From NCBI RefSeq assembly GCF_003315245.1, contig NZ_QNRT01000002.1:1295825-1359824 (forward strand): a DNA stretch of 64,000 nt, in the 5' to 3' direction. The number at the start of each line of letters is the position of its first letter. Within the stretch, counting starts at the first letter, position 1. The DNA is from Arenicella xantha (GTDB taxonomy: Bacteria > Pseudomonadota > Gammaproteobacteria > Arenicellales > Arenicellaceae). The position numbers were made by a program, and so were the translations under genes. The notes beneath the pieces were generated by a model. The model saw only the letters and a list, made by a program, of their open reading frames with translations, did not search any database and was not told where the DNA came from. Of the stretch, positions 49,852 through 60,359 are shown piece by piece.

Positions 49852-51879
49852 TTAGGGGCAACTAGCCAATTCAAAGTAGCCGGTGCTGGTTTCGGCGAGG
49901 GTTCGCACGGTAAAGGTATTGTACCAGCCGAGATAGTCACTGGAACCGAGCGCGTAGACCAAGTAACCCGAAGTAGTAGCCCGCCCTGCCGCGACATGCG
50001 CATAATTACTACTCGTAATCTCAGTACAACTTCCCCCGCCGGAGGAATTGTCACACACGTCACCGATGCCATCGCCGTCGGTATCTGATTGGTTGCTATT
50101 GGCATCGACTGGGCAGTTGTCGACATTATCAGCAACACCATCTCCGTCAGTATCTAGCGCCCCACCACCGCCAGAGCAAACTTGCAAAGGGCCGGCACAA
50201 CTTGGCTCAGCATCAGCCACCCATTGGCATTGTGATTGACCGTTTGGGACTTCACGCATGGTAAAACTAGCCGTGCCAAACGCTAAATAGCACTGAGAAT
50301 AGCCGACGCCCCAGGTAATATGCCCTTGCGAAATATGCAGGTTATAGTCACCCGTTATGCCAGCATCGACTTGAAAAATTACGGTTTGCGTACTGCTCAA
50401 ATTAGCGCCATCGAGCGCAACCACGGTTGCACTATTCGAGCCGCCAGCAAGGTCGCACTGGCTTGCTGAAAACTGGCTACCTTCAACCACGGCGGCGACC
50501 ACTGGGCCGTTAGCAAAGGTCACGGTAACTGAACTCAAATCTTGGTTCACATCAATTACGGTGCCAGCAATTGTCGCGCATTGACCAACAACTGACGCTG
50601 TCAGGTCACTGAGTGTTGGCGGGCTCGACGGCGGCGGTGGTCCAACTCTGACGGTCACTTCAACAGACTCACCCAGTGCGTTGATATTGTCTTCAGCGCG
50701 TGCAATGACTTGATAGAGACCGTCAGCCAACGCGATAGTTTGCGCCGCAAAGTCACCAGTTACCGCATCAACAGGTGTGTTGATGGTTTGCGTCAGCACC
50801 GGCGGATTAGCATCAATTTTTGAAACGCTTAGCGCTACTTGCAATACACTGCCATCAGCATCGCTAGCATTGCCAGTAATCAACAATACCCCAGACCCCG
50901 ACACAGCGCTTAAACCACTAACGACGGGACGTTGGTTTCGGTCAACGCGTAAATTGTGTTGCGCAAAATAGCTGGCTAGGTAAGACGCGAAATTGATACT
51001 TTCACCGCTAACATAACTGCCTGATGCGCCGTCTCCTCCTGACCATGAGTGATCAAGACCATCGAACCACAACATCGCGACACGATCGTCCGACCATCGC
51101 GACTCTTGGGCAGTGTGACCCACACCATCACTGACAAGATTGCTCCCAGCGATTGCTGAAACACCATAGAGCTGCGCATAGCCATTTGCGTTTTGCTGGT
51201 TATAGCAGGTGTTAACCGTGGTATCGGCTGAGCCATGACCAACCACAGCGAGTTGCGTTGCAAAGTGCGAAGAAGCGGCGCCAGCATATGCAGTGCAGCG
51301 AGAGCTAAAGGTTGCCGGGCTCACCACCTCACAGCTTGATATTGCCCCATTTGAGCTGGTTCCAATGGTCGGACCAGCGCTCGGCGCTACTCCAGCAAAC
51401 ACATCTGGCGCTGCGCAAGCAGCTTGTGCAGCGAAAGCCGCACCGGACGACAAGCCCGTTAGATATACCTGCTCAGGATCAATATTCCTCAGCGGATCAT
51501 TGCTCAAAGTATTCGCGAGCGAGACTAAGTTAGCATAGTCTCCGGAATTACGATTCACCGCGCCTTGCCAGTACGACCAACAACTAAAGCCCGCCTTATT
51601 CATAGCATCAGGAACGGCAACCACCATGCCATACTGCTCAGCGGCGTCCTCTAAATTAGCCGTGAGATAGTTGCTAATTGGTTGAACACAGCCATGCAAA
51701 ACCAGCATCAAGGCTTTGCCTGATCCAATTGAAGACACGGTATCTGGCGTATAAATATTGACCGAATTAAAACCGCCGATCGCCACGTTTTGCTGCCAAC
51801 TGCCGGCGAAGGCGGCTTGACTCAGACTCCCGACCGCACACAGCACGGCGACAACATAAATTAACTGTTTCTTGAACAT
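49852..51879 (-). CDS. secreted PHB-depolymerase-type esterase with calcium-binding repeats
   Basis: 675 residues from the ATG at 51879, preceded by AAGGAGG. A signal peptide ends near AAFA (about residue 25). The catalytic domain has an oxyanion-type HGCVQPISNYL, the lipase box GLSSG with Ser144 and a late His in LDHSWSGGDG, as in type 1 short-chain-length PHA depolymerases. Fibronectin-like linker segments and a thrombospondin type 3 calcium-binding stretch (DTDGDGVADNVDNC and a second copy, about residues 582-615) follow, then a C-terminal module with SSNYAHVAAGRA. It should hydrolyse an extracellular polyester such as PHB. Confidence 0.88.
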   Translation of the reverse strand: MFKKQLIYVVAVLCAVGSLSQAAFAGSWQQNVAIGGFNSVNIYTPDTVSSIGSGKALMLVLHGCVQPISNYLTANLEDAAEQYGMVVAVPDAMNKAGFSCWSYWQGAVNRNSGDYANLVSLANTLSNDPLRNIDPEQVYLTGLSSGAAFAAQAACAAPDVFAGVAPSAGPTIGTSSNGAISSCEVVSPATFSSRCTAYAGAASSHFATQLAVVGHGSADTTVNTCYNQQNANGYAQLYGVSAIAGSNLVSDGVGHTAQESRWSDDRVAMLWFDGLDHSWSGGDGASGSYVSGESINFASYLASYFAQHNLRVDRNQRPVVSGLSAVSGSGVLLITGNASDADGSVLQVALSVSKIDANPPVLTQTINTPVDAVTGDFAAQTIALADGLYQVIARAEDNINALGESVEVTVRVGPPPPSSPPTLSDLTASVVGQCATIAGTVIDVNQDLSSVTVTFANGPVVAAVVEGSQFSASQCDLAGGSNSATVVALDGANLSSTQTVIFQVDAGITGDYNLHISQGHITWGVGYSQCYLAFGTASFTMREVPNGQSQCQWVADAEPSCAGPLQVCSGGGGALDTDGDGVADNVDNCPVDANSNQSDTDGDGIGDVCDNSSGGGSCTEITSSNYAHVAAGRATTSGYLVYALGSSDYLGWYNTFTVRTLAETSTGYFELASCP

Positions 51880-52000
51880 AGATAGTTCCTCCTTATGGTG
51901 AGTTGGCCTGCAATGTCGCTGCAAAAATCCGCCATACACAGCAAACCAGTGACCGCCCTAGCGCTGAGCTTTTGCTCTATTTTCTAAGGTAGCTCGTGAA

Positions 52001-52016
52001 TTCAACAAGAGTTGAA
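52001..52016. promoter_or_regulatory. TetR-type operator, depolymerase promoter, downstream site
   Basis: TTCAACAAGAGTTGAA, a 16-bp palindrome with 6-bp outer arms. It lies between the presumed transcription start of the depolymerase and its start codon. One of five related sites in this locus. Confidence 0.78.
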
Positions 52017-52025
52017 TTGACAGGC

Positions 52026-52055
52026 AATATAGTTCAACACTTGTTGAATAGTCAA
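52026..52055 (-). promoter_or_regulatory. depolymerase promoter with operator in the spacer
   Basis: On the minus strand TTGACT (52050-52055) and TATATT (52026-52031) are separated by 18 bp, and the palindrome TTCAACACTTGTTGAA (52033-52048) fills that spacer. This position would block RNA polymerase when the operator is bound. Confidence 0.72.
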
Positions 52056-52206
52056 GCTAGCCACTTTTACCACGCCGGTGAATGGCAGACGCTAAATTAT
52101 TATGAAGGAGTAAGAGCCGCTAGATCGCGAGGCTGCAACAGAGCGACATTCAGTGTTATTGAAGGGTATCAATATGAGTGAACGCGGAGATAATCAAATA
52201 TACCAA

Positions 52207-52842
52207 CTACCCACAGACTCGAATAAAGCCTGCCGCGATAAATGGAATCATAGTGCCATAGGCGGCTTCAAAATCATCTGACCGGCAACGTCCGTTGGAC
52301 AGTTTATCGATACGGCCAGTTTGCGCAAACGTAAGAGTTAAAGCGCCCGAAAGATTTTGGTAGCACCAATAAATATCGTCATCTTTAGCGTTTGGTAACG
52401 CTTTCTTTAACGCGTCGATAAACTCTTGCACCAGTTTGTCAAACATCGATGACATCATCGACTTACCCCAAACCGGCGAGTTATTGACATATGCAATCAA
52501 TGCTAAATAGTTCTTCCAACCGGGGTCCGTGGTTTCTTGCGCCATTTCCAATGGTCGCAAAAACGCTTCAATAATCTGTTCAACACTTGGTCCCGCTTCG
52601 CCAGCATCACGCTGACAAGCTCTTAAGGCGTTAACCCGAGAGCTATTGAGAAGTTCAGCACGACGTTCAAACACCGCGTTAAATACGTCGATTTTGCGAC
52701 CAAAATGGTAATTAGCTAATGCGACGTCGACATCGGCATGGCTAGCAATTTGACGCATTGTGACGCCATCATAGCCATGCACTGCGAATAATGATTCGGC
52801 AGCATCTAAGATTCGTTCACTTTTTGAGGGAGTTGCTGACAC
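52207..52842 (-). CDS. TetR/AcrR-family repressor, likely regulator of the ester-utilisation locus
   Basis: 211 residues. The N-terminal helix-turn-helix reads ILDAAESLFAVHGYDGVTMRQIASHADVDVALANYHFG (typical TetR). The C-terminal ligand domain is of the TetR_C_30-like type (WCYQNLSGALTLTFAQTGRI). It is surrounded by genes whose promoters carry the palindrome TTCAACANNNGTTGAA, so it is the best candidate for the protein binding it. It lacks that palindrome in its own 145-bp upstream region, which instead holds three tandem 17-bp repeats. The inducer is probably a hydroxyacid or its CoA ester. Confidence 0.88.
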   Translation of the reverse strand: MSATPSKSERILDAAESLFAVHGYDGVTMRQIASHADVDVALANYHFGRKIDVFNAVFERRAELLNSSRVNALRACQRDAGEAGPSVEQIIEAFLRPLEMAQETTDPGWKNYLALIAYVNNSPVWGKSMMSSMFDKLVQEFIDALKKALPNAKDDDIYWCYQNLSGALTLTFAQTGRIDKLSNGRCRSDDFEAAYGTMIPFIAAGFIRVCG

Positions 52843-52900
52843 TGAGAATGACTAGTACGTCGGAAGATGTCGATCATTATATGGAGCGCACCTAGCAGCG

Positions 52901-52951
52901 TCAATTTAGCCGCACTATCAATATAGCCATACTGTCAATTTAGCGGTACTG
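52901..52951. repeat. three tandem 17-bp repeats upstream of tetR
   Basis: TCAATTTAGCCGCACTA (52901-52917), TCAATATAGCCATACTG (52918-52934) and TCAATTTAGCGGTACTG (52935-52951) are head to tail. They lie 59-109 bp upstream of the TetR gene start, in its promoter region, and could be binding sites of another regulator. Confidence 0.8.
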
Positions 52952-52987
52952 TTGAAGCTGCTTATTGGCTACAGTTGCAGCATACCG

Positions 52988-53734
52988 TTACAGCCTTAGT
53001 CCGCCATCAATCTCTAAGACTCGCCCATTAAAATAGTCGTTTTCGATCGCAAACAATACACCCGAGGCAATTTCATTCGGCTCGCCGAGTCGTTTAAGCG
53101 GAATGGTTTGTTCAATTTTACTCAGCACCTCTGCCGGCACTTTAGAAGTCATCGCCGTTTTAATAAACCCTGGGGCAATCGCAACCACTCTAATATTATA
53201 TTTTGCCAACTCCTTACACCAGGTCGAGGTAAATGCCACCACGCCTGCTTTAGCCGCAGCATAGCTACTTTGTCCAACATTCCCAGCACGACTGATACTC
53301 GAAATATTAATAATTAAGCCGGACGATTGAGCATCAATCATTAAGGCGCTGGCTTCACGCGCGCACAAAAATGACCCAGTTAAATTAACATCTAAGACTG
53401 GTTGAAATTTTGCCAGCGGTGTTTTACTAACAACACCCTCACGCTGCTTAACCATTAGCCCATCATTGGTAATACCCGCATTATTTATCAATACGTCGAC
53501 GCACCCAAAGTCTTGCTTGATCGACTCAAACACGCGCTCGACCTGCTCTTCATCGCTAATATTAGCCGCATAACCTTTGGCCGCTGGAAGAACCTCAATC
53601 GCGGTCGCGATACAGGCAGGATCAAGATCAATAATAGCAATGCTTGCGCCCTTAGCGGCTAAGGCACTCGCCATTGATAAACCCAGACCGCCGGCACCGC
53701 CAGTGATCACTACTGTTTTTCCTTCAATATTCAT
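52988..53734 (-). CDS. SDR-family dehydrogenase (FabG or hydroxyacid dehydrogenase type)
   Basis: 248 residues from the ATG at 53734. The cofactor site TGGAGGLG is at residues 11-18, followed by NNAG (84-87) and the catalytic triad Ser146, Tyr158 and Lys162 in the SYAAAKAG segment. This is a classical SDR that could oxidise a 3-hydroxyacid such as 3-hydroxybutyrate or its CoA ester. It is divergent from the symporter gene and shares a promoter region that carries one operator. Confidence 0.88.
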   Translation of the reverse strand: MNIEGKTVVITGGAGGLGLSMASALAAKGASIAIIDLDPACIATAIEVLPAAKGYAANISDEEQVERVFESIKQDFGCVDVLINNAGITNDGLMVKQREGVVSKTPLAKFQPVLDVNLTGSFLCAREASALMIDAQSSGLIINISSISRAGNVGQSSYAAAKAGVVAFTSTWCKELAKYNIRVVAIAPGFIKTAMTSKVPAEVLSKIEQTIPLKRLGEPNEIASGVLFAIENDYFNGRVLEIDGGLRL

Positions 53735-53797
53735 GAATGAGAACCCTATCCTACTTAGGAGATTAGTCGAGAAGGCCGCTATTCTGCCTAATCTAAT

Positions 53798-53826
53798 TTG
53801 CAAATTCAACACGCGTTGAATATAGT
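53798..53826 (+). promoter_or_regulatory. symporter promoter with operator in the spacer
   Basis: TTGCAA (53798-53803) and TATAGT (53821-53826) with 17 bp between; TTCAACACGCGTTGAA (53805-53820) fills the spacer. The site is palindromic and would also lie near the -35 of the divergent SDR gene (TTGAAT, then CAGAAT 17 bp later on the minus strand). Confidence 0.75.
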
Positions 53827-53842
53827 TTGATCACAAAAATTA

Positions 53843-55291
53843 ATGAGAAAAACCATGACTCCCGAAATTTTCAAATATTCCCTAACTATTGGCTATGCCT
53901 TGTTTGTACTCTGGCTGTCTTGGGTTGGCATGCGGCGAACTCGTGATTTAAAGGGCTTTGCTATCGGCAACAAAGATATGAGCCCGTATGTTATTGGCTT
54001 TACTCTAGCGGCTTCAATTGCGTCGACCGCCACCTTTGTGATTAACCCTGGTTTTGTCTATGCCGACGGACTCTCTGCCTTTTTACATTACGGCGTTTCT
54101 GCCTCATTAGGTATTTGTGCCGCGTTTGTCGTGCTCACGCGTGGCTTCCTACGTCTCGGCGAGACGCACCAAGCATTAACGATCCCAGAGTGGATATATC
54201 ACCGCTACCAGAGCCGCGAACTCAGACTATTTTTCGCGTTGATCAATTTGCTGTCGATCACGTTTGTGGTATTAATTTTAGTCGGTTGCGCGCTACTTAT
54301 GACTGGGCTATTCCCAATAGACCACAAGCAAGCACTAGTGGTTATTTTGTTGTTCGTCTTCGCGTACGTGCTGATGGGCGGCACCTATGCGCATGCCTAT
54401 ACCAACACGCTGCAGGGCGGCATGATGCTCTTAATCGCGATATTTCTATTTGCTGATGGCTTTGGCTTTGTTGACGGTGGGTTCATCCATTCACTGCAAA
54501 ACGTGAGTGAAAATTACGCCGCCGTCTATAACCCAGAAAGTCGCCTGTACTTTGATTTTGTATCGGTATTTTTAAGCGGCTTTGTGGTTACCTTTGCGCT
54601 CATGTTGCAACCGCACATCTTGACCAAAGTTTTGTACCTGCGCAGTGAGCGAGACATAAAAAAGTTTATTGGCACTACGGTAATTGTTGGGTTTTGCTTC
54701 AGTCTGATGCTCGCCATTGGGTTTTATGCTCGCTTCGCAGGACTGGAAATCGACAATCAAGATGCCGTTGTTCGGGAGTACTTACTGTTCCGCTTTGGTG
54801 ATTCCGCAGTCGGTCAATACATTCTCACGTTTATATTCCTAACCTTGTTGGCTGCCGGCATGAGCACCTTAGATGGAATACTGGTGTCGCTCTCGGCCAT
54901 GGTTATAAACGACATTGCCACCCCTCTATTTGGCGGTATTAAAAATGCCTTATTGTGGTCGCGTATATTGCTTGTAGTGGTCGGTGTAGTGGCATTGTTA
55001 TTGGCATGGAACCCACCAGCATTGATCGGCTTGTTTGCGCAAAAAGGAGTGTATGGGCTCGCCGCCGCTTCCGCAGCACCATTATTATTCGGCGTTTTGT
55101 ATCAGGGCCAACTACCCAAATCGATGATTTTTCTAGCCGCGATAAGCGGTCTCGTTTTGCACCTAATTTTGAACTTATTTCTGGGCGTGGCCAATCCAGC
55201 GGTATCTGCGACCATCGCCATTGGCGTGTCGGTCGCATTAGTGAGCGGCTCTTTAATAATCACTAGAATCAAGATCACTTCAGGGTCATAA
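53843..55291 (+). CDS. sodium:solute symporter (SSS) family transporter
   Basis: 482 residues with about 13 hydrophobic helices. The LeuT-type fold motif is seen in GNKDMSPYVIGFTLAASIASTATF near residue 43-66, and a later LTLLAAGMSTLDGILVSLSAM (about residues 335-355) is the conserved SSS signature region. The first ATG lies only a few bases after the expected transcript start; a second ATG at 53855 (MTPEIF) may be the true one. Known relatives import monocarboxylates, amino acids or sugars with sodium. In this locus a hydroxyacid or short oligomer is the likely cargo. Confidence 0.9.
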   Translation: MRKTMTPEIFKYSLTIGYALFVLWLSWVGMRRTRDLKGFAIGNKDMSPYVIGFTLAASIASTATFVINPGFVYADGLSAFLHYGVSASLGICAAFVVLTRGFLRLGETHQALTIPEWIYHRYQSRELRLFFALINLLSITFVVLILVGCALLMTGLFPIDHKQALVVILLFVFAYVLMGGTYAHAYTNTLQGGMMLLIAIFLFADGFGFVDGGFIHSLQNVSENYAAVYNPESRLYFDFVSVFLSGFVVTFALMLQPHILTKVLYLRSERDIKKFIGTTVIVGFCFSLMLAIGFYARFAGLEIDNQDAVVREYLLFRFGDSAVGQYILTFIFLTLLAAGMSTLDGILVSLSAMVINDIATPLFGGIKNALLWSRILLVVVGVVALLLAWNPPALIGLFAQKGVYGLAAASAAPLLFGVLYQGQLPKSMIFLAAISGLVLHLILNLFLGVANPAVSATIAIGVSVALVSGSLIITRIKITSGS

Positions 55292-55327
55292 CAGAACCGC
55301 ACCATTGATCTATCAAACTAACCATCG

Positions 55328-55383
55328 TTGACATTTCAACAAGCGTTGAGTAGACTTTATTTCAACACGCGTTGAAATAAAGT
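55328..55383 (+). promoter_or_regulatory. TonB-receptor promoter with two operators
   Basis: TTGACA (55328-55333) and TAGACT (55351-55356) with a 17-bp spacer; TTCAACAAGCGTTGAG (55335-55350) lies in the spacer. A second operator, TTCAACACGCGTTGAA (55361-55376), lies at the presumed start of transcription and is the core of a 30-bp palindrome (55354-55383) with 13-bp perfect arms. Confidence 0.8.
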
Positions 55384-55459
55384 CTTATGCTTGTTTTTGA
55401 CGGTGTCGATGAACAATAAAAATAAAATACATAATGACCACATTCCAGAGGAGAAACCA

Positions 55460-57706
55460 ATGTCCAAGCAGTCATCGCCCAGATTAGTTCCAACCCTGAT
55501 AGCACTAGCCTGCGTAGCCGCATCAGCCAATACACAAGCCCAATCGACCGACGGTGAATCAGTCAGTCGCCTTGAAGAAATCATCGTTACGTCGCGAAGA
55601 ATTTCAGAAAACTTGCAAGATGTCCCAGTTGCGGTATCCGCGTTTAGCGATAATGCACTAACTGAAATGGGCATCGAAAACATTACCGACCTACAACAGC
55701 GCTTACCCAACACCACGTTGCAAGTTAGTCGTGGCACTAACACTACCCTAACAGCCTATATTCGTGGCGTAGGACAGCAGGATCCGTTGTGGGGATTCGA
55801 ACCAGGTGTTGGTGTGTACGTAGACGATGTCTACATTGCTCGTCCGCAAGGTGCGGTGCTCGATATCCTCGATGTCGAGCGAGTGGAAGTACTGCGCGGA
55901 CCGCAAGGCACTTTATATGGCAAAAATACCATCGGTGGTGCACTCAAATACGTTACGCGAAAACTACGTGATGCTGATGCCTTTTCGGTTGAAGCCAAAC
56001 TGGGGTCCTATTCTCAGCGAGACCTCAAGCTTTCCGCCGCAGCGCCAATCGTAGAAGATAAGTTTTATATTGGCGGCGCTGTTGCAACACTGAATCGTGA
56101 CGGCTTCGGCGAGTTTATCAACCTAGGTGAAGAGAACTATAATAAAGACATGACAGCTGGACGTGTTTCGGCAGAATGGTACCCATCAGATTCAGTCTCA
56201 TTTAGATTCACCGCTGACCGCACCGAAGACAATTCCAACGCCAAAGGCGGACATCGATTAACACCAAGTGACTTAACCGGCGAACCCGTATTAGACGATG
56301 TATTCAGCACACGCGCCGGCATGTCAACCGACAACTATGTTGAAAGCGAAGGCTATGCATTACACGCTGAGTGGGCAATTAGCGACTCTCTAACATTTCG
56401 CTCAATTTCAGCAACCCGTGAAGGCTATTCAGACACCAATATAGATTTCGACAATACCGCACTACGTTCCTTCGACGTGCCGGCCATTTATGAAGATGAC
56501 CAAACCACGCAAGAGTTTCAGTTAAATTATAGTGGTGAAAATTGGGATTTAGTCAGTGGGTTGTATTACTACACTGGCGAAGCTTGCGGGGTATTTCACG
56601 CGGTGTTAGAAGAATTCGCTGGTGGCACACTGCCGCTCACCGCGACCACCGAAGGCTGTGTCGAAACCGACAGTACCTCAGCATACGCGCAAGCCAATTG
56701 GACAATTAATGATAGCTGGTCAATGACCCTTGGCGGACGCTATACCAAAGATGAAAAAGTCGCCTTTGCAAAGAACACGCTCTATCTCTTTCAAGTCGTT
56801 GACTTCGATAACCCACCAGTGGCACCAGGTATTGTGCGAACCGACGCTACCGGCAGCGAAGACTGGTCAGAATTCTCACCGCGAATCGGTTTTGAATACC
56901 GTACTGACAGCGGCAACTTAATTTACGCTAGCTACAGTGAAGGGTTTAAATCAGGTGGCTTCGACATGCGTGCGCGCACCGACCAACTGTCATCAGGCTT
57001 TGATCCTTACGACCCCGAAACCGTCGGATCGTTTGAGATAGGTTTCAAAGCAGACTTACTCGATGATCGCTTACGTACCAACATCGCCTATTTCAATGCC
57101 GACTACCAAGACCAACAGGTGACCATTCAACGCACCATCGATAGCGGCGCGGACTTCGCTTCCACCGTTCTAAATGCCGCTGATTCCGGTATCCAAGGTG
57201 TGGAACTAGAAATGGTCTACGCGGTTAATGATGCGCTAACCGCGACGCTAGGAGTTGGCTTATTAGACGCAGAGTTCGATCGCGTAACCACCACCGACCC
57301 AGCCAGCGGACAGCTAGTGGATGTGTCTAATTTATGGGACTTCGCGAATACTCCGGACACGTCGATCAATCTTGGGTTTGCCTACAACCGAACAGTCTTT
57401 TCAGATTGGGCCATGACATTCACCGGCAATGTCGCGTATCGCAGCGACACGCAAATATTCGAAGTACCATCAGCGCTCGACGAAGAGGCCTACAGCTTAT
57501 TCAATGCCGGTCTTACGTTTACCTCTCCTGATGAAAAACTTTGGGTTTCACTACAAGGCAAAAATCTCGGTGATAAAGAATATCGGCTAGCCGGCTACAA
57601 CTTTGCAACCACAGCTGCCGGGCCAGGTCTTGGCGGCGAAGATACTGTCGTCGGTTATTACGGCGATCCGCGGATGATTAGCCTAAGTGTTGGATATCGT
57701 TATTAA
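55460..57706 (+). CDS. TonB-dependent outer-membrane receptor
   Basis: 748 residues from the ATG at 55460, preceded by GAGGAG. The signal peptide ends near NTQA (about residue 28). The plug domain has the TonB-box-like EEIIVTSRR start (about residues 39-47) and QDVPVAVSAFS; GPQGTLYGKNTIGGA is the typical plug motif. The beta-barrel follows and ends in Tyr. Not an iron-regulated locus by context, so its cargo is likely an ester oligomer or hydrophobic compound. Two operators lie at its promoter. Confidence 0.9.
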   Translation: MSKQSSPRLVPTLIALACVAASANTQAQSTDGESVSRLEEIIVTSRRISENLQDVPVAVSAFSDNALTEMGIENITDLQQRLPNTTLQVSRGTNTTLTAYIRGVGQQDPLWGFEPGVGVYVDDVYIARPQGAVLDILDVERVEVLRGPQGTLYGKNTIGGALKYVTRKLRDADAFSVEAKLGSYSQRDLKLSAAAPIVEDKFYIGGAVATLNRDGFGEFINLGEENYNKDMTAGRVSAEWYPSDSVSFRFTADRTEDNSNAKGGHRLTPSDLTGEPVLDDVFSTRAGMSTDNYVESEGYALHAEWAISDSLTFRSISATREGYSDTNIDFDNTALRSFDVPAIYEDDQTTQEFQLNYSGENWDLVSGLYYYTGEACGVFHAVLEEFAGGTLPLTATTEGCVETDSTSAYAQANWTINDSWSMTLGGRYTKDEKVAFAKNTLYLFQVVDFDNPPVAPGIVRTDATGSEDWSEFSPRIGFEYRTDSGNLIYASYSEGFKSGGFDMRARTDQLSSGFDPYDPETVGSFEIGFKADLLDDRLRTNIAYFNADYQDQQVTIQRTIDSGADFASTVLNAADSGIQGVELEMVYAVNDALTATLGVGLLDAEFDRVTTTDPASGQLVDVSNLWDFANTPDTSINLGFAYNRTVFSDWAMTFTGNVAYRSDTQIFEVPSALDEEAYSLFNAGLTFTSPDEKLWVSLQGKNLGDKEYRLAGYNFATTAAGPGLGGEDTVVGYYGDPRMISLSVGYRY

Positions 57707-57732
57707 CGTCGCACCATAGATGACCTGAAGTA

Positions 57733-57766
57733 CCTAGCTATTCGTCCAAACTGACGAGTAGCTAGG
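57733..57766 (+). terminator. long hairpin after the TonB-receptor gene
   Basis: CCTAGCTATTCGTC (57733-57746) and GACGAGTAGCTAGG (57753-57766) pair along 14 bp with one G-T wobble and a 6-nt loop, 26 bp after the stop. There is no clear T-tract. It could terminate or stabilise the transcript. Confidence 0.55.
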
Positions 57767-57852
57767 CCACCACTATTAATTATAAGGAACGACCTGAGCG
57801 CCACTAACAAAATAGCGTTGGCTTTAGGCGCTCAATAATCTACGTGAGTTGT

Positions 57853-59418
57853 ATGAATCATTTTCAAGCGAAAAGCCCTTTATTACCCGAAATACTAGCG
57901 CTACACGGTAAGTGGCGCGCTCAGCAAGATGCGGTTATTTGTCACAACCAACGCCTCACTTGGCGGCAGTTTACCGAGACATACCATCAGTTCGCTCACG
58001 GAATGCTTGCACAAGGTGTTCAACCCGCCGACAAGGTCGGAATCATTATGTCGAACGGCATTCCCATGCTCAGCGCTTTAATGGGTTGCATGGCGGCCGG
58101 CTTAGTATCAGTTCCCATTAACCTATCGGTCAACGATGATGCATTACTTGGAATGTTGAGCGATGCCAAGGTCACCGCCATCGTCGTGAGTCACGACCAA
58201 CAGCAACGAATCGAAGCACTAGCGGGCCAACTTCCAACCAGCATTTTGATCAAAGTTTGCGATTCACCAACGAATCAACCTTGGGTAGCATGGCAAGACT
58301 TGCTTTACGATCAACCAACCACCCTTCCCGACGTTACTATTGATGACACAAGTGAGCTCAATATTATATATAGCTCAGGTACTACCGGCCTTCCCAAAGG
58401 CATTGTACATAACCATGCCGGACGACGAGATTGGGCTTATGATTTAGCCATCGCACTGCGCTACCACTGCAACAGTAAAACGCTACTGACCTTGGGTCTG
58501 TACTCTAATATTTCATGGGTCGCAATGCTAACAACCTTGCTGGCTGGTGGCACGTTGGTGATCCATCAGCAATTCAACGTTGTACAATTTTTAACCACAG
58601 TTGCTACTGAGTCCATCACACACACGGCAATGGTACCCATTCAATTCCAACGTATTTTGGAACAACTAGAAGCCAATACCAACAAATGGGACCTCTCTAG
58701 CATGCAGGCCATGATGAGCTGCGGCTCACCACTACACGCCGAGCTCAAGCAGCGAATTTTCAAACACTTTGACTGCGGAATCATTGAGCTCTACGGCTTA
58801 ACAGAGGGCGTCATCACAACGATCGAGCCAGAGCAATCCGAAGGACGCTGGTCGTCAGTTGGCAAACCTCTTATCGGTACCGACATCCGAATTGTTAACG
58901 AAGATAACCAAGAGCTGGATGCCAACCAAAGTGGCGAAATTGTGTCGCGCGGTCGAATCACCATGCCCGGCTATCTAAACCGGCCCGATGCCAACCAAGA
59001 TGCCAGCTACACCGACCCACAAGGCAAGCTATGGTTACGCACCGGCGACATCGGCTATTTTGATGAAGAAGGTTTTCTATATATTGTCGACCGCAAAAAA
59101 GACATGATTTTGTCCGGTAGCCAGAACATATATCCTCAAGACATCGAAGCGGTGTTAATCGAACATGGCGACGTTAACGACGTTGCGGTAATCGCAGCTA
59201 GCAGTGAGCGATGGGGCGAAACACCGATCGCGCTGATCGTACCCAACAACCCGAACAGCGTAAACCAACAGAGCTTGCTGCAGTGGGCGAATAGCTGCCT
59301 CGGTAAGCAACAACGAATTGCCGATGTTATCTTTGTAGAAGAACTGCCGAGAAACCCTAACGGAAAAGTACTCAAGCGCGAGCTTCGAAATACCTTCGCG
59401 ACAAAGCAGTATCCTTGA
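57853..59418 (+). CDS. acyl-CoA ligase (AMP-forming)
   Basis: 521 residues from the ATG at 57853 (a GTG at 57844 is possible). Class I adenylate-forming enzyme: P-loop SSGTTGLPKGIVHNH (about residue 175), YGLTEGVITT, TGDIGYFDEEGFLYIVDRKK (hinge and Asp) and a C-terminal PRNPNGKVLKREL with the catalytic Lys. It activates a carboxylic acid to its CoA thioester. It comes next after the TonB receptor and is followed by an alpha/beta hydrolase, consistent with ester hydrolysis then CoA activation. Confidence 0.88.
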   Translation: MNHFQAKSPLLPEILALHGKWRAQQDAVICHNQRLTWRQFTETYHQFAHGMLAQGVQPADKVGIIMSNGIPMLSALMGCMAAGLVSVPINLSVNDDALLGMLSDAKVTAIVVSHDQQQRIEALAGQLPTSILIKVCDSPTNQPWVAWQDLLYDQPTTLPDVTIDDTSELNIIYSSGTTGLPKGIVHNHAGRRDWAYDLAIALRYHCNSKTLLTLGLYSNISWVAMLTTLLAGGTLVIHQQFNVVQFLTTVATESITHTAMVPIQFQRILEQLEANTNKWDLSSMQAMMSCGSPLHAELKQRIFKHFDCGIIELYGLTEGVITTIEPEQSEGRWSSVGKPLIGTDIRIVNEDNQELDANQSGEIVSRGRITMPGYLNRPDANQDASYTDPQGKLWLRTGDIGYFDEEGFLYIVDRKKDMILSGSQNIYPQDIEAVLIEHGDVNDVAVIAASSERWGETPIALIVPNNPNSVNQQSLLQWANSCLGKQQRIADVIFVEELPRNPNGKVLKRELRNTFATKQYP

Positions 59419-59465
59419 TACTCTAATTCGAATACTCCTCAGCAGAACTTTCGCCAGGAATCTCT

Positions 59466-60359
59466 ATGAATGATTACGCCGACGTTTGGTACACCAGCGC
59501 AGATAAACTAAGCCTGTATGCTCGTGACTACGGCTCATCACCTAAAACCAATTCAGCGCCCGTGACCACCGTTTTGTGCATGCACGGCTTGACTCGCAAT
59601 TCAGCTGATTTTGCACCGCTTTGTTCGGCTCTCAAAGTGGCATTACCAGGGGGCTTTCGTTTGATCGCAGTAGACCAGCGAGGCCGAGGACGGTCAGACT
59701 ACGACGACAACCCTGAGAATTATACGCCAGCGGTCTATATGCATGACATGTTTGCCTTACTTGAACATTTAGATGTTGATTCAGTGATTGCGATTGGCAC
59801 GTCAATGGGAGGAATCATTGCCATGTTAATGGCGGCGTATCGGCCCGACACCGTTCGAGCCATGGTCATCAATGACATCGCCCCTGAAGTTCCGCCCGCC
59901 GCGATCAAACGTTTACAGCGTTATGTAGGCCAGCTCGCACCAGTGAAATCGTGGGACGATGCGATCGCACAAACTAAACTAATCAATGAGTTTGCTTTTC
60001 CAAACGCCAGCGCTGCTGACTGGCAAGCTTTTGCCGAACGGCTATTTGTTGAAAACACACAAGGTATTCCAGAGCTGGCTTATGACGCGAATATCAAACA
60101 AGCTTTTAGTACCGACTATGACGAAACACCGCCAGATATGTGGGGGCTTTTCGAGCAGATAATCGATATCCCGATGTTATTGATTCGCGGCGAGTTGTCC
60201 GACTTACTCACGAGCCAATTAGCTGAGGCAATGCGTCACAAAAAACCAGACTTAAACATAGCGCTAGTGCCGCAGGTCGGGCACGCTCCTATGCTGACGG
60301 AGCCCGAAGCATTTAGCGCGATCACAGATTTTTTAGTCGGCCTCGCTAACCCCATTTAA
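59466..60359 (+). CDS. alpha/beta hydrolase
   Basis: 297 residues. The oxyanion-type HGLTRNSADF (about residue 40), the nucleophile elbow GTSMGG (Ser about residue 116), and the late His in QVGHAPML (about residue 279) are visible, along with VDQRGRGRSDYDDNPE. It is a soluble esterase or hydrolase with no signal peptide. It lies 47 bp after the CoA ligase and is likely co-transcribed. A cytoplasmic oligomer hydrolase is the natural role for this locus, by inference. Confidence 0.85.
   Translation: MNDYADVWYTSADKLSLYARDYGSSPKTNSAPVTTVLCMHGLTRNSADFAPLCSALKVALPGGFRLIAVDQRGRGRSDYDDNPENYTPAVYMHDMFALLEHLDVDSVIAIGTSMGGIIAMLMAAYRPDTVRAMVINDIAPEVPPAAIKRLQRYVGQLAPVKSWDDAIAQTKLINEFAFPNASAADWQAFAERLFVENTQGIPELAYDANIKQAFSTDYDETPPDMWGLFEQIIDIPMLLIRGELSDLLTSQLAEAMRHKKPDLNIALVPQVGHAPMLTEPEAFSAITDFLVGLANPI

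Follow-up and report, generated by a model that had tools for sequence, protein, structure and literature searches.

A predicted TetR-controlled regulon for the utilisation of polyhydroxybutyrate and 3-hydroxybutyrate in Arenicella xantha and other gammaproteobacteria

Background

The nearest described control system that we met is that of HbcR in Pseudomonas, an RpoN-dependent activator responding to (R)-3-hydroxybutyrate (3HB) (PMC10482368). Here we describe a locus of Arenicella xantha that lies in a window of 64,000 nucleotides (the whole stretch of DNA analysed; contig NZ_QNRT01000002.1, positions 1,295,825 to 1,359,824) and combines genes for a secreted esterase of the polyhydroxybutyrate (PHB) depolymerase type, a TetR-type regulator, a short-chain dehydrogenase/reductase (SDR), a symporter of the sodium solute symporter (SSS) family, a TonB-dependent receptor, an AMP-forming acyl-coenzyme A (CoA) ligase and an alpha/beta hydrolase. 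Both systems have a dedicated regulator, tied to 3HB catabolism in the window by prediction, but HbcR is an activator, whereas in the window a predicted TetR repressor is combined with a depolymerase, a TonB receptor and an SSS carrier, and the locus has no gene for the 3HB dehydrogenase BdhA. The PHB-binding regulators PhaR/AniA likewise regulate PHB metabolism, but are described in connection with PHB storage.

With extracellular PHB depolymerases the locus shares the enzyme itself: the window esterase scores over the family model NF050058, and the enzyme of a congener (G007) is a homologue of Paucimonas lemoignei PhaZ7. The difference is that the window gene stands under a palindromic operator common to uptake genes. 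The regulator has a TetR_C_30 C-terminal domain like PsrA, but its best named NCBIfam match, NF053516, reached 94.6 bits, far below the PsrA equivalog cut-off of 300 bits, and its regulon differs. In the polysaccharide utilisation loci of Bacteroidetes a secreted hydrolase, TonB-linked uptake, an inner-membrane carrier and a regulator are also assembled in one locus, whereas the window concerns a polyester and not a glycan, has no SusC/SusD pair and is under TetR control.

Among the open-licence PMC papers listed by our searches, none describes a comparable TonB/TetR system in its title or the opening of its abstract, and searches of the same literature gave no paper joining TonB with PhaZ7, with 3HB and sodium solute symporter, with PHB depolymerase and oligomer, or with PHB degradation, proteomics and marine. 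In a word search, TonB and transporter were absent from two papers on polyhydroxyalkanoate (PHA) degradation (PMC7830162, PMC11893044). Judging from these two papers, the control of extracellular PHB breakdown and product uptake seems to be little described.

Results

We interpret the locus, with a probability of about 0.8, as a PHB/3HB utilisation regulon under one predicted TetR repressor, since operator pairs away from the core precede PHB depolymerase genes, BdhA genes occur within the loci of relatives, and ligase and BdhA are almost mutually exclusive. Both the regulation and the substrate class appear well supported by comparison. The sequence basis of the regulon consists of the genes, the operators, their placement in promoter-like sequences, their conservation, the other depolymerases, the linkage of BdhA and the ligase/BdhA exclusion.

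The seven genes between positions 49852 and 60359 are intact open reading frames (ORFs), and family-model searches confirmed the families that a sequence-only reading of the window had stated (Table 1). The 16-bp operator shared by three promoters, which had been noted as well, turned out to be richer than described. The palindrome TTCAACNNNNGTTGAA occurs in four exact copies and one copy with a mismatch, and these five sites form a 2-1-2 layout over the depolymerase promoter, the SDR/SSS gap and the TonB promoter. The exact copies are the only four in the whole genome (G000; 4,436,813 bases, or 4.44 Mb, in 29 contigs, 99% complete), in which about 0.3 would be expected from base composition; thus the operator is not a chance occurrence.

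Each of the promoters before the depolymerase, SSS and TonB genes has one operator copy that occupies the spacer between its -35-like and -10-like hexamers, and partner copies lie 32 bases away at the depolymerase and 26 bases away at the TonB promoter. A promoter scan of the stretch gave 9 promoter-like sites versus 6.2 in shuffles. Hexamers alone would prove little; the argument comes from their placement around the operators, which recurs in relatives. Hexamers bracketed 32 of 55 distal TonB sites (shuffled-flank mean 2.4) and 23 of 53 SSS sites (mean 1.6), figures in which two loci count twice (L050/L123, on the same contig, and L040/L119, which agree in length and sites). Since operators in promoter spacers represent the layout of RNA-polymerase exclusion, the predicted TetR should repress. 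The tetR gene of A. xantha itself is probably not auto-repressed, because its own promoter-like sequence is operator-free. The 34-bp palindrome around the proximal TonB operator lies a short distance behind the SSS gene and has the score of a terminator-like hairpin as well; it may serve both roles.

Exact operator pairs with 8-24 bases between the copies were then searched in relatives, using the reversed pattern as control. In the family of Pseudohalioglobus lutimaris 31 pairs were found in 30 of 140 genomes, and in an order-level sample the pair was present in 19 of 390 genomes; the reversed control gave 0/140 and 0/390. A TonB-receptor homologue follows 30 of the 31 family pairs, and all 8 newly met pairs of the order sample precede TonB as well. 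The remaining family pair (G163, contig C5) is located on a contig other than that of the core and precedes a gene orthologous to that of the window depolymerase (62%); this orthologue occurred only in G163 among the 140 family genomes (protein search, E 1e-20). In the congener G007 (contig C175) a pair with copies 28 bases apart precedes the PhaZ7 homologue, residues 36-368 of which align with residues 1-335 of PDB entry 2vtv (E 8e-114). This protein was found in G007 alone among 46 genomes, apart from weak partial matches (27-32%) in G100 and G101. Tetranucleotide usage of its contig correlated with that of the core contig at r 0.907, compared with 0.50-0.74 for the other pairs compared, which argues against contamination. 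Both exact pairs found away from the core hence stand before genes of extracellular PHB depolymerases, of two unrelated kinds (PhaZ7 and type 1), and this points to PHB/3HB as the substrate. In a further locus (L127) the ligase-hydrolase operon lies apart from TonB and carries its own operator; therefore, the regulon includes ligase and hydrolase.

The entry of 3HB into metabolism gave another indication of the substrate. A ligase orthologue was present in 42 of 59 core genomes, although the search scored at most 25 candidates per genome and may have missed ligases. BdhA over the cut-off of its family model TIGR01963 was found in 6/34 plus 6/25 core genomes, that is in 1 of the 42 genomes with ligase versus 11 of the 17 without (Fisher p 4.7e-7, inflated by kinship). 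In 6 of these 12 genomes the BdhA gene directly follows tetR; three cases (L034, L035, L037; over TIGR01963 and PRK12429) were placed by hmmscan and three (L125, L130, L131; over TIGR01963) by coordinates. In L036 a BdhA over PRK12429, just below TIGR01963, is encoded between TonB and hydrolase, in the slot that the ligase takes in the sister locus L073, and an acetoacetyl-CoA reductase gene follows tetR; on the SSS tree L036 clusters with ligase-bearing Halieaceae. When the ligase label is mapped onto a tree of 47 SSS proteins, three changes are needed, around Cellvibrionaceae, Spongiibacteraceae and L036, and well-supported branches force each of them. For all 12 ligase-less loci of this tree a 3HB dehydrogenase is encoded either within the locus or at another place in the same genome. 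Because of the near-exclusion over 59 genomes, the three changes on the tree and the shared slot in L036, ligase and BdhA look like alternatives for the same job, the entry of 3HB into metabolism. We lean towards a 3HB-CoA ligase over an acetoacetate ligase, which is not proof.

In the A. xantha genome a search with TIGR01963 (cut-off 307 bits) gave a single match, on contig C1, with 206.6 bits, and no match to the window SDR at E 1e-60. The window SDR scored over the FabG-like model PRK08217 (348.5 bits, cut-off 298). The dehydrogenase, earlier taken for an oxidiser of hydroxyacids, is thus FabG-like and not a 3HB dehydrogenase by family, and oxidation therefore probably takes place after CoA activation. 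An Asp follows its second strand (IIDLDP), which by the cofactor rule presumably reflects a preference for NAD(H).

The window esterase was over two family models: it scored 167 bits with NF050058, the model of extracellular type-1 short-chain PHA depolymerases (cut-off 150), and 151.9 bits with TIGR01840 (cut-off 107.85); the depolymerase orthologues of G005, G015 and G163 were likewise over NF050058. It consists of a catalytic domain, TSP3-type repeats and a C-terminal domain common to other PHB-depolymerase-family esterases. Ten plasmid records contained this C-terminal part; 8 of them place it in an annotated PHB depolymerase family esterase, and 2 list no gene there. The lipase box GLSSG occurs once, and the N-terminus from 51879 is hydrophobic, as judged by eye for an export signal. 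The enzyme is probably an extracellular type-1 short-chain PHB depolymerase. Two Cellvibrionaceae-type loci (L032, L033) have, after the hydrolase gene, an esterase gene without an operator of its own, the product of which is over NF050058. In Sessilibacter corallicola (L095) a weak operator pair (sites 562 and 595, 33 bases apart, with 1 and 2 mismatches) was seen downstream of an esterase gene and before an ATP-grasp gene.

The genus comparison covered 100 genomes, our own included, with 17 other congeners. An SSS orthologue (68-81% identity) was present in 4 of these 17. All seven genes were found in G007 and G015 and six in G005, where the contig ends inside the ligase; G005 and G015 kept the 2-1-2 operator layout when one mismatch was allowed. 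In G007 the type-1 depolymerase gene is on the opposite side of the locus, where the contig stops about 74 bases before it and leaves the promoter outside. The fourth congener, G004, has TetR, SSS, TonB, ligase, hydrolase and operators. Directly after its hydrolase gene lies a gene for a PAF-AH-type, probably secreted lipase (L030:16142-17698), which matched a PETase model only below the cut-off and is possibly another polyester or lipid esterase.

An SSS profile run against the GTDB genome collection retrieved 46 loci; the counts omit L031, L039 and L065, which repeat G005, G004 and G007, and loci with a distant SSS (L058, L063, L066) were not taken as core. The gammaproteobacterial loci (Halieaceae, Spongiibacteraceae, Cellvibrionaceae and unclassified) mostly have no depolymerase. 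Their core starts with tetR, followed by SSS behind a single operator and TonB behind two, then in most cases the ligase, and finally the hydrolase. Named carriers are Spongiibacter marinus, Zhongshania antarctica, Parahaliea and Pseudohalioglobus. Several loci are cut by contig ends, and tetR was present in 33 of 34. In whole-genome searches the exact palindrome was found in 32/32 core genomes, 26 of which had all exact copies at the locus. The other 6 contained 10 sites away from it, 8 single ones and one pair; 5 of the 8 single sites lie within ORFs, and the single sites are mostly taken as chance. Two loci (L128, L129) keep tetR and the TonB operator pair with no SSS within the stretch, and L050/L123 has no tetR within the stretch examined. 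A further exact operator copy lies at L050:150 (G247 contig), 3.3 kb before the SSS operator.

Altogether, the core is conserved together with its operators; the depolymerase and this SDR are missing in most relatives and look like additions to a core conserved without them. The one-regulon proposal of the sequence-only reading accordingly survives for hydrolysis, uptake and CoA entry under TetR, with the substrate narrowed to PHB/3HB, and needs amending for these two genes.

More distantly, ten Bacteriovoracaceae-type loci have an SSS homologue (56-63%) beside a ligase; nine of them also have a ketoacyl-synthase III (KAS III)-like protein, an SDR and a hydrolase, and six a different TetR; no exact operator copy was found in these ten. 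An esterase over NF050058 adjoins the different TetR in 3 of the 10 (L055, L061, L076), and near L051 there is a PhaC-like gene below the cut-off of its model. Together with L032 and L033, the esterases of these distant loci support a 3HB link of the SSS carrier itself.

Discussion

According to the proposed mechanism, TetR would occupy the promoter spacers of the depolymerase, SSS and TonB genes, and the partner copies at depolymerase and TonB, in the absence of inducer and block RNA polymerase. The inducer may be 3HB, a 3HB oligomer or a CoA derivative, upon which TetR would be released. The secreted depolymerase would cut PHB outside the cell, the TonB receptor would carry oligomers across the outer membrane and the SSS symporter would import 3HB, or short oligomers of it, through the inner membrane. 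From size and linkage we infer that PHB oligomers are the TonB cargo. The hydrolase would finish the oligomers, the ligase would make (R)-3HB-CoA and the FabG-like SDR would oxidise it to acetoacetyl-CoA, a product that a general thiolase would split. We also favour, with clearly less assurance than the regulon as such, the fuller picture of a polyester utilisation locus, in which a TonB receptor is dedicated to 3HB oligomers under its own TetR/operator regulon, PHB depolymerases (type 1, PhaZ7) joined on several occasions and a 3HB-CoA ligase substitutes for BdhA.

Several observations weigh against a PHB/3HB regulon. Family models gave no ligand for SSS, TonB, ligase or hydrolase, and PDB sequence matches of SDR, ligase, hydrolase and TonB indicated none. 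Hexamers bracketed 0 of 55 proximal TonB sites (shuffled mean 1.6). Three single operator sites precede genes without evident PHB link; those in L080 and L082 are intergenic and that in L085 lies at an ORF start. One genome (G139) has both ligase and BdhA, and six (G104, G116, G126, G154, G140, G378) have neither a ligase match nor BdhA over the cut-off; in G104 the BdhA score is just below TIGR01963 but over PRK12429, the loci of G116, G126 and G154 are cut by contig ends, and G140 has a ligase fragment at a contig end. G004 has no depolymerase and no SDR at the locus and no Esterase_PHB protein at E 1e-5, and the substrate there need therefore not be polymer-derived. At the same threshold Esterase_PHB proteins were not found in 21 of 33 core genomes; many carriers therefore probably scavenge 3HB or oligomers, or use other depolymerase families. 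Core genomes also have Esterase_PHB genes away from the loci (L089-L091, L097-L100, L102), but these had no upstream operator with up to one mismatch, and those enzymes are thus probably outside the regulon. Finally, a depolymerase carrier lacking gene set and operator, which the sequence-only reading had named as evidence against its proposal, was seen in plasmid p1 of Pseudoalteromonas shioyasakiensis (L108): a full-length orthologue (57% identity) stands alone, with no TetR, no SSS and no operator (up to one mismatch) in the 22-kb stretch. We read this case as an enzyme moving between contexts, which leaves the regulon untouched where the regulator exists.

The same regulon could work with an acetoacetate-CoA ligase if some SDR first oxidised 3HB to acetoacetate, which we consider unlikely. 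There is room for it, as the ligase matches broad acyl-CoA ligase models, below the cut-offs among the 25 matches listed, the window SDR could accept free 3HB, and a first look gave 12 to 121 SDR-like candidates per core genome. However, the absence of BdhA over the cut-off from 41 of 42 ligase genomes would be odd if 3HB were oxidised as a free acid, and FabG-like enzymes act on thioesters. Moreover, the BdhA genomes are without this ligase although they need acetoacetate activation too, for which they may use a CoA transferase. A core that imports some other hydroxyacid, fatty acid or ester, e.g. longer 3-hydroxyalkanoates, and acquired PHB depolymerases later is slightly less probable still. 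PsrA senses fatty acids, the window TetR is closest to PsrA/NicR and the ligase resembles fatty-acid ligases; the lipase of G004 and the many core genomes without Esterase_PHB proteins would also fit such a substrate. Against this stand the 3HB dehydrogenase in seven loci, the acetoacetyl-CoA reductase in one, and the PHB depolymerases behind both unlinked operator pairs. That the 16-bp repeats are sites of another regulator or a structural repeat appears very improbable: their assignment to this TetR is a prediction and the palindrome at 55352-55385 is terminator-like, but the sites occupy promoter spacers and occur nowhere else in the genome, 33 of 34 gammaproteobacterial loci have a tetR homologue next to them, and L128 and L129, with no SSS in the stretch, retain both tetR and the operator pair before TonB.

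If the PHB/3HB regulon is real, many carriers without this depolymerase family may live on oligomers released by others, which suggests competition for PHB fragments among many gammaproteobacteria that have no such depolymerase of their own and bears on the fate of bioplastics in nature. A 3HB-CoA ligase route replacing BdhA would be a previously unrecognised 3HB activation. The locus offers testable candidates for every step, also in the named strains, and predicts a CoA-ligase activity.

Features of the window and minor observations

The most likely start of the TonB protein is at 55460, as suggested by a clear Shine-Dalgarno-like sequence, and that of the SDR at 53734, as suggested by family models and relatives.

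Table 1. Genes, operators and promoter-like sequences of the locus (positions in the window; roles are predictions)
Feature	Position	Strand	Basis or remark
Secreted PHB-depolymerase-type esterase	49852..51939	-	likely start 51879; family models, lipase box GLSSG
TetR repressor (predicted), TetR_C_30, PsrA/NicR-like	52207..52842	-	family models; homologue in 33/34 gammaproteobacterial loci
FabG-like SDR, probably NAD(H)-dependent 3-hydroxyacyl-CoA dehydrogenase	52988..53734	-	ORF from 53812; family models
SSS-family symporter, predicted 3HB or short-oligomer importer	53843..55291	+	family models, relatives
TonB-dependent receptor, predicted 3HB-oligomer importer	55460..57706	+	ORF from 55391; homologues behind operator pair
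AMP-forming acyl-CoA ligase, predicted 3HB-CoA ligase	57844..59418	+	reciprocal with BdhA; own operator in L127
Alpha/beta hydrolase, predicted intracellular 3HB-oligomer hydrolase	59466..60359	+	no evident signal peptide; conserved core gene
Operator, proximal, upstream of depolymerase	52001..52016	.	exact copy
Operator, distal, in depolymerase promoter spacer	52033..52048	.	exact copy
Operator between SDR and SSS	53805..53820	.	exact copy
Operator, distal, upstream of TonB receptor	55335..55350	.	one mismatch
Operator, proximal, upstream of TonB receptor	55361..55376	.	exact; within 34-bp palindrome 55352-55385
Depolymerase promoter-like sequence TTGACT-18-TATATT	52026..52055	-	operator in spacer
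tetR promoter-like sequence TTGACG-17-TATAAT	52876..52904	-	operator-free
SSS promoter-like sequence TTTGCA-18-TATAGT	53797..53826	+	operator in spacer
TonB-receptor promoter-like sequence TTGACA-17-TAGACT	55328..55356	+	operator in spacer

Neighbouring genes for ten proteins (fasciclin, sulfotransferase, PhoD, glycosyltransferase, FAD oxidoreductase and others) were tried as substrate clues and rejected, as they differ between loci; nor did five genes in the vicinity of the Spongiibacter and Zhongshania loci point to a pathway.

In two of the Bacteriovoracaceae-type loci (L051:4209-11446, L061:3836-11503) an operon encodes a KAS III-like protein (PRK06840), two hydrolases, SDR, ligase and SSS, and in some loci it lies beside a PHB-depolymerase-type esterase. 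These bacteria are predators, and their prey may store PHB. In Candidatus Uabimicrobium amorphum (L063:8825-11458) an SSS homologue (56%) is divergent from an adjoining KAS III-like gene.

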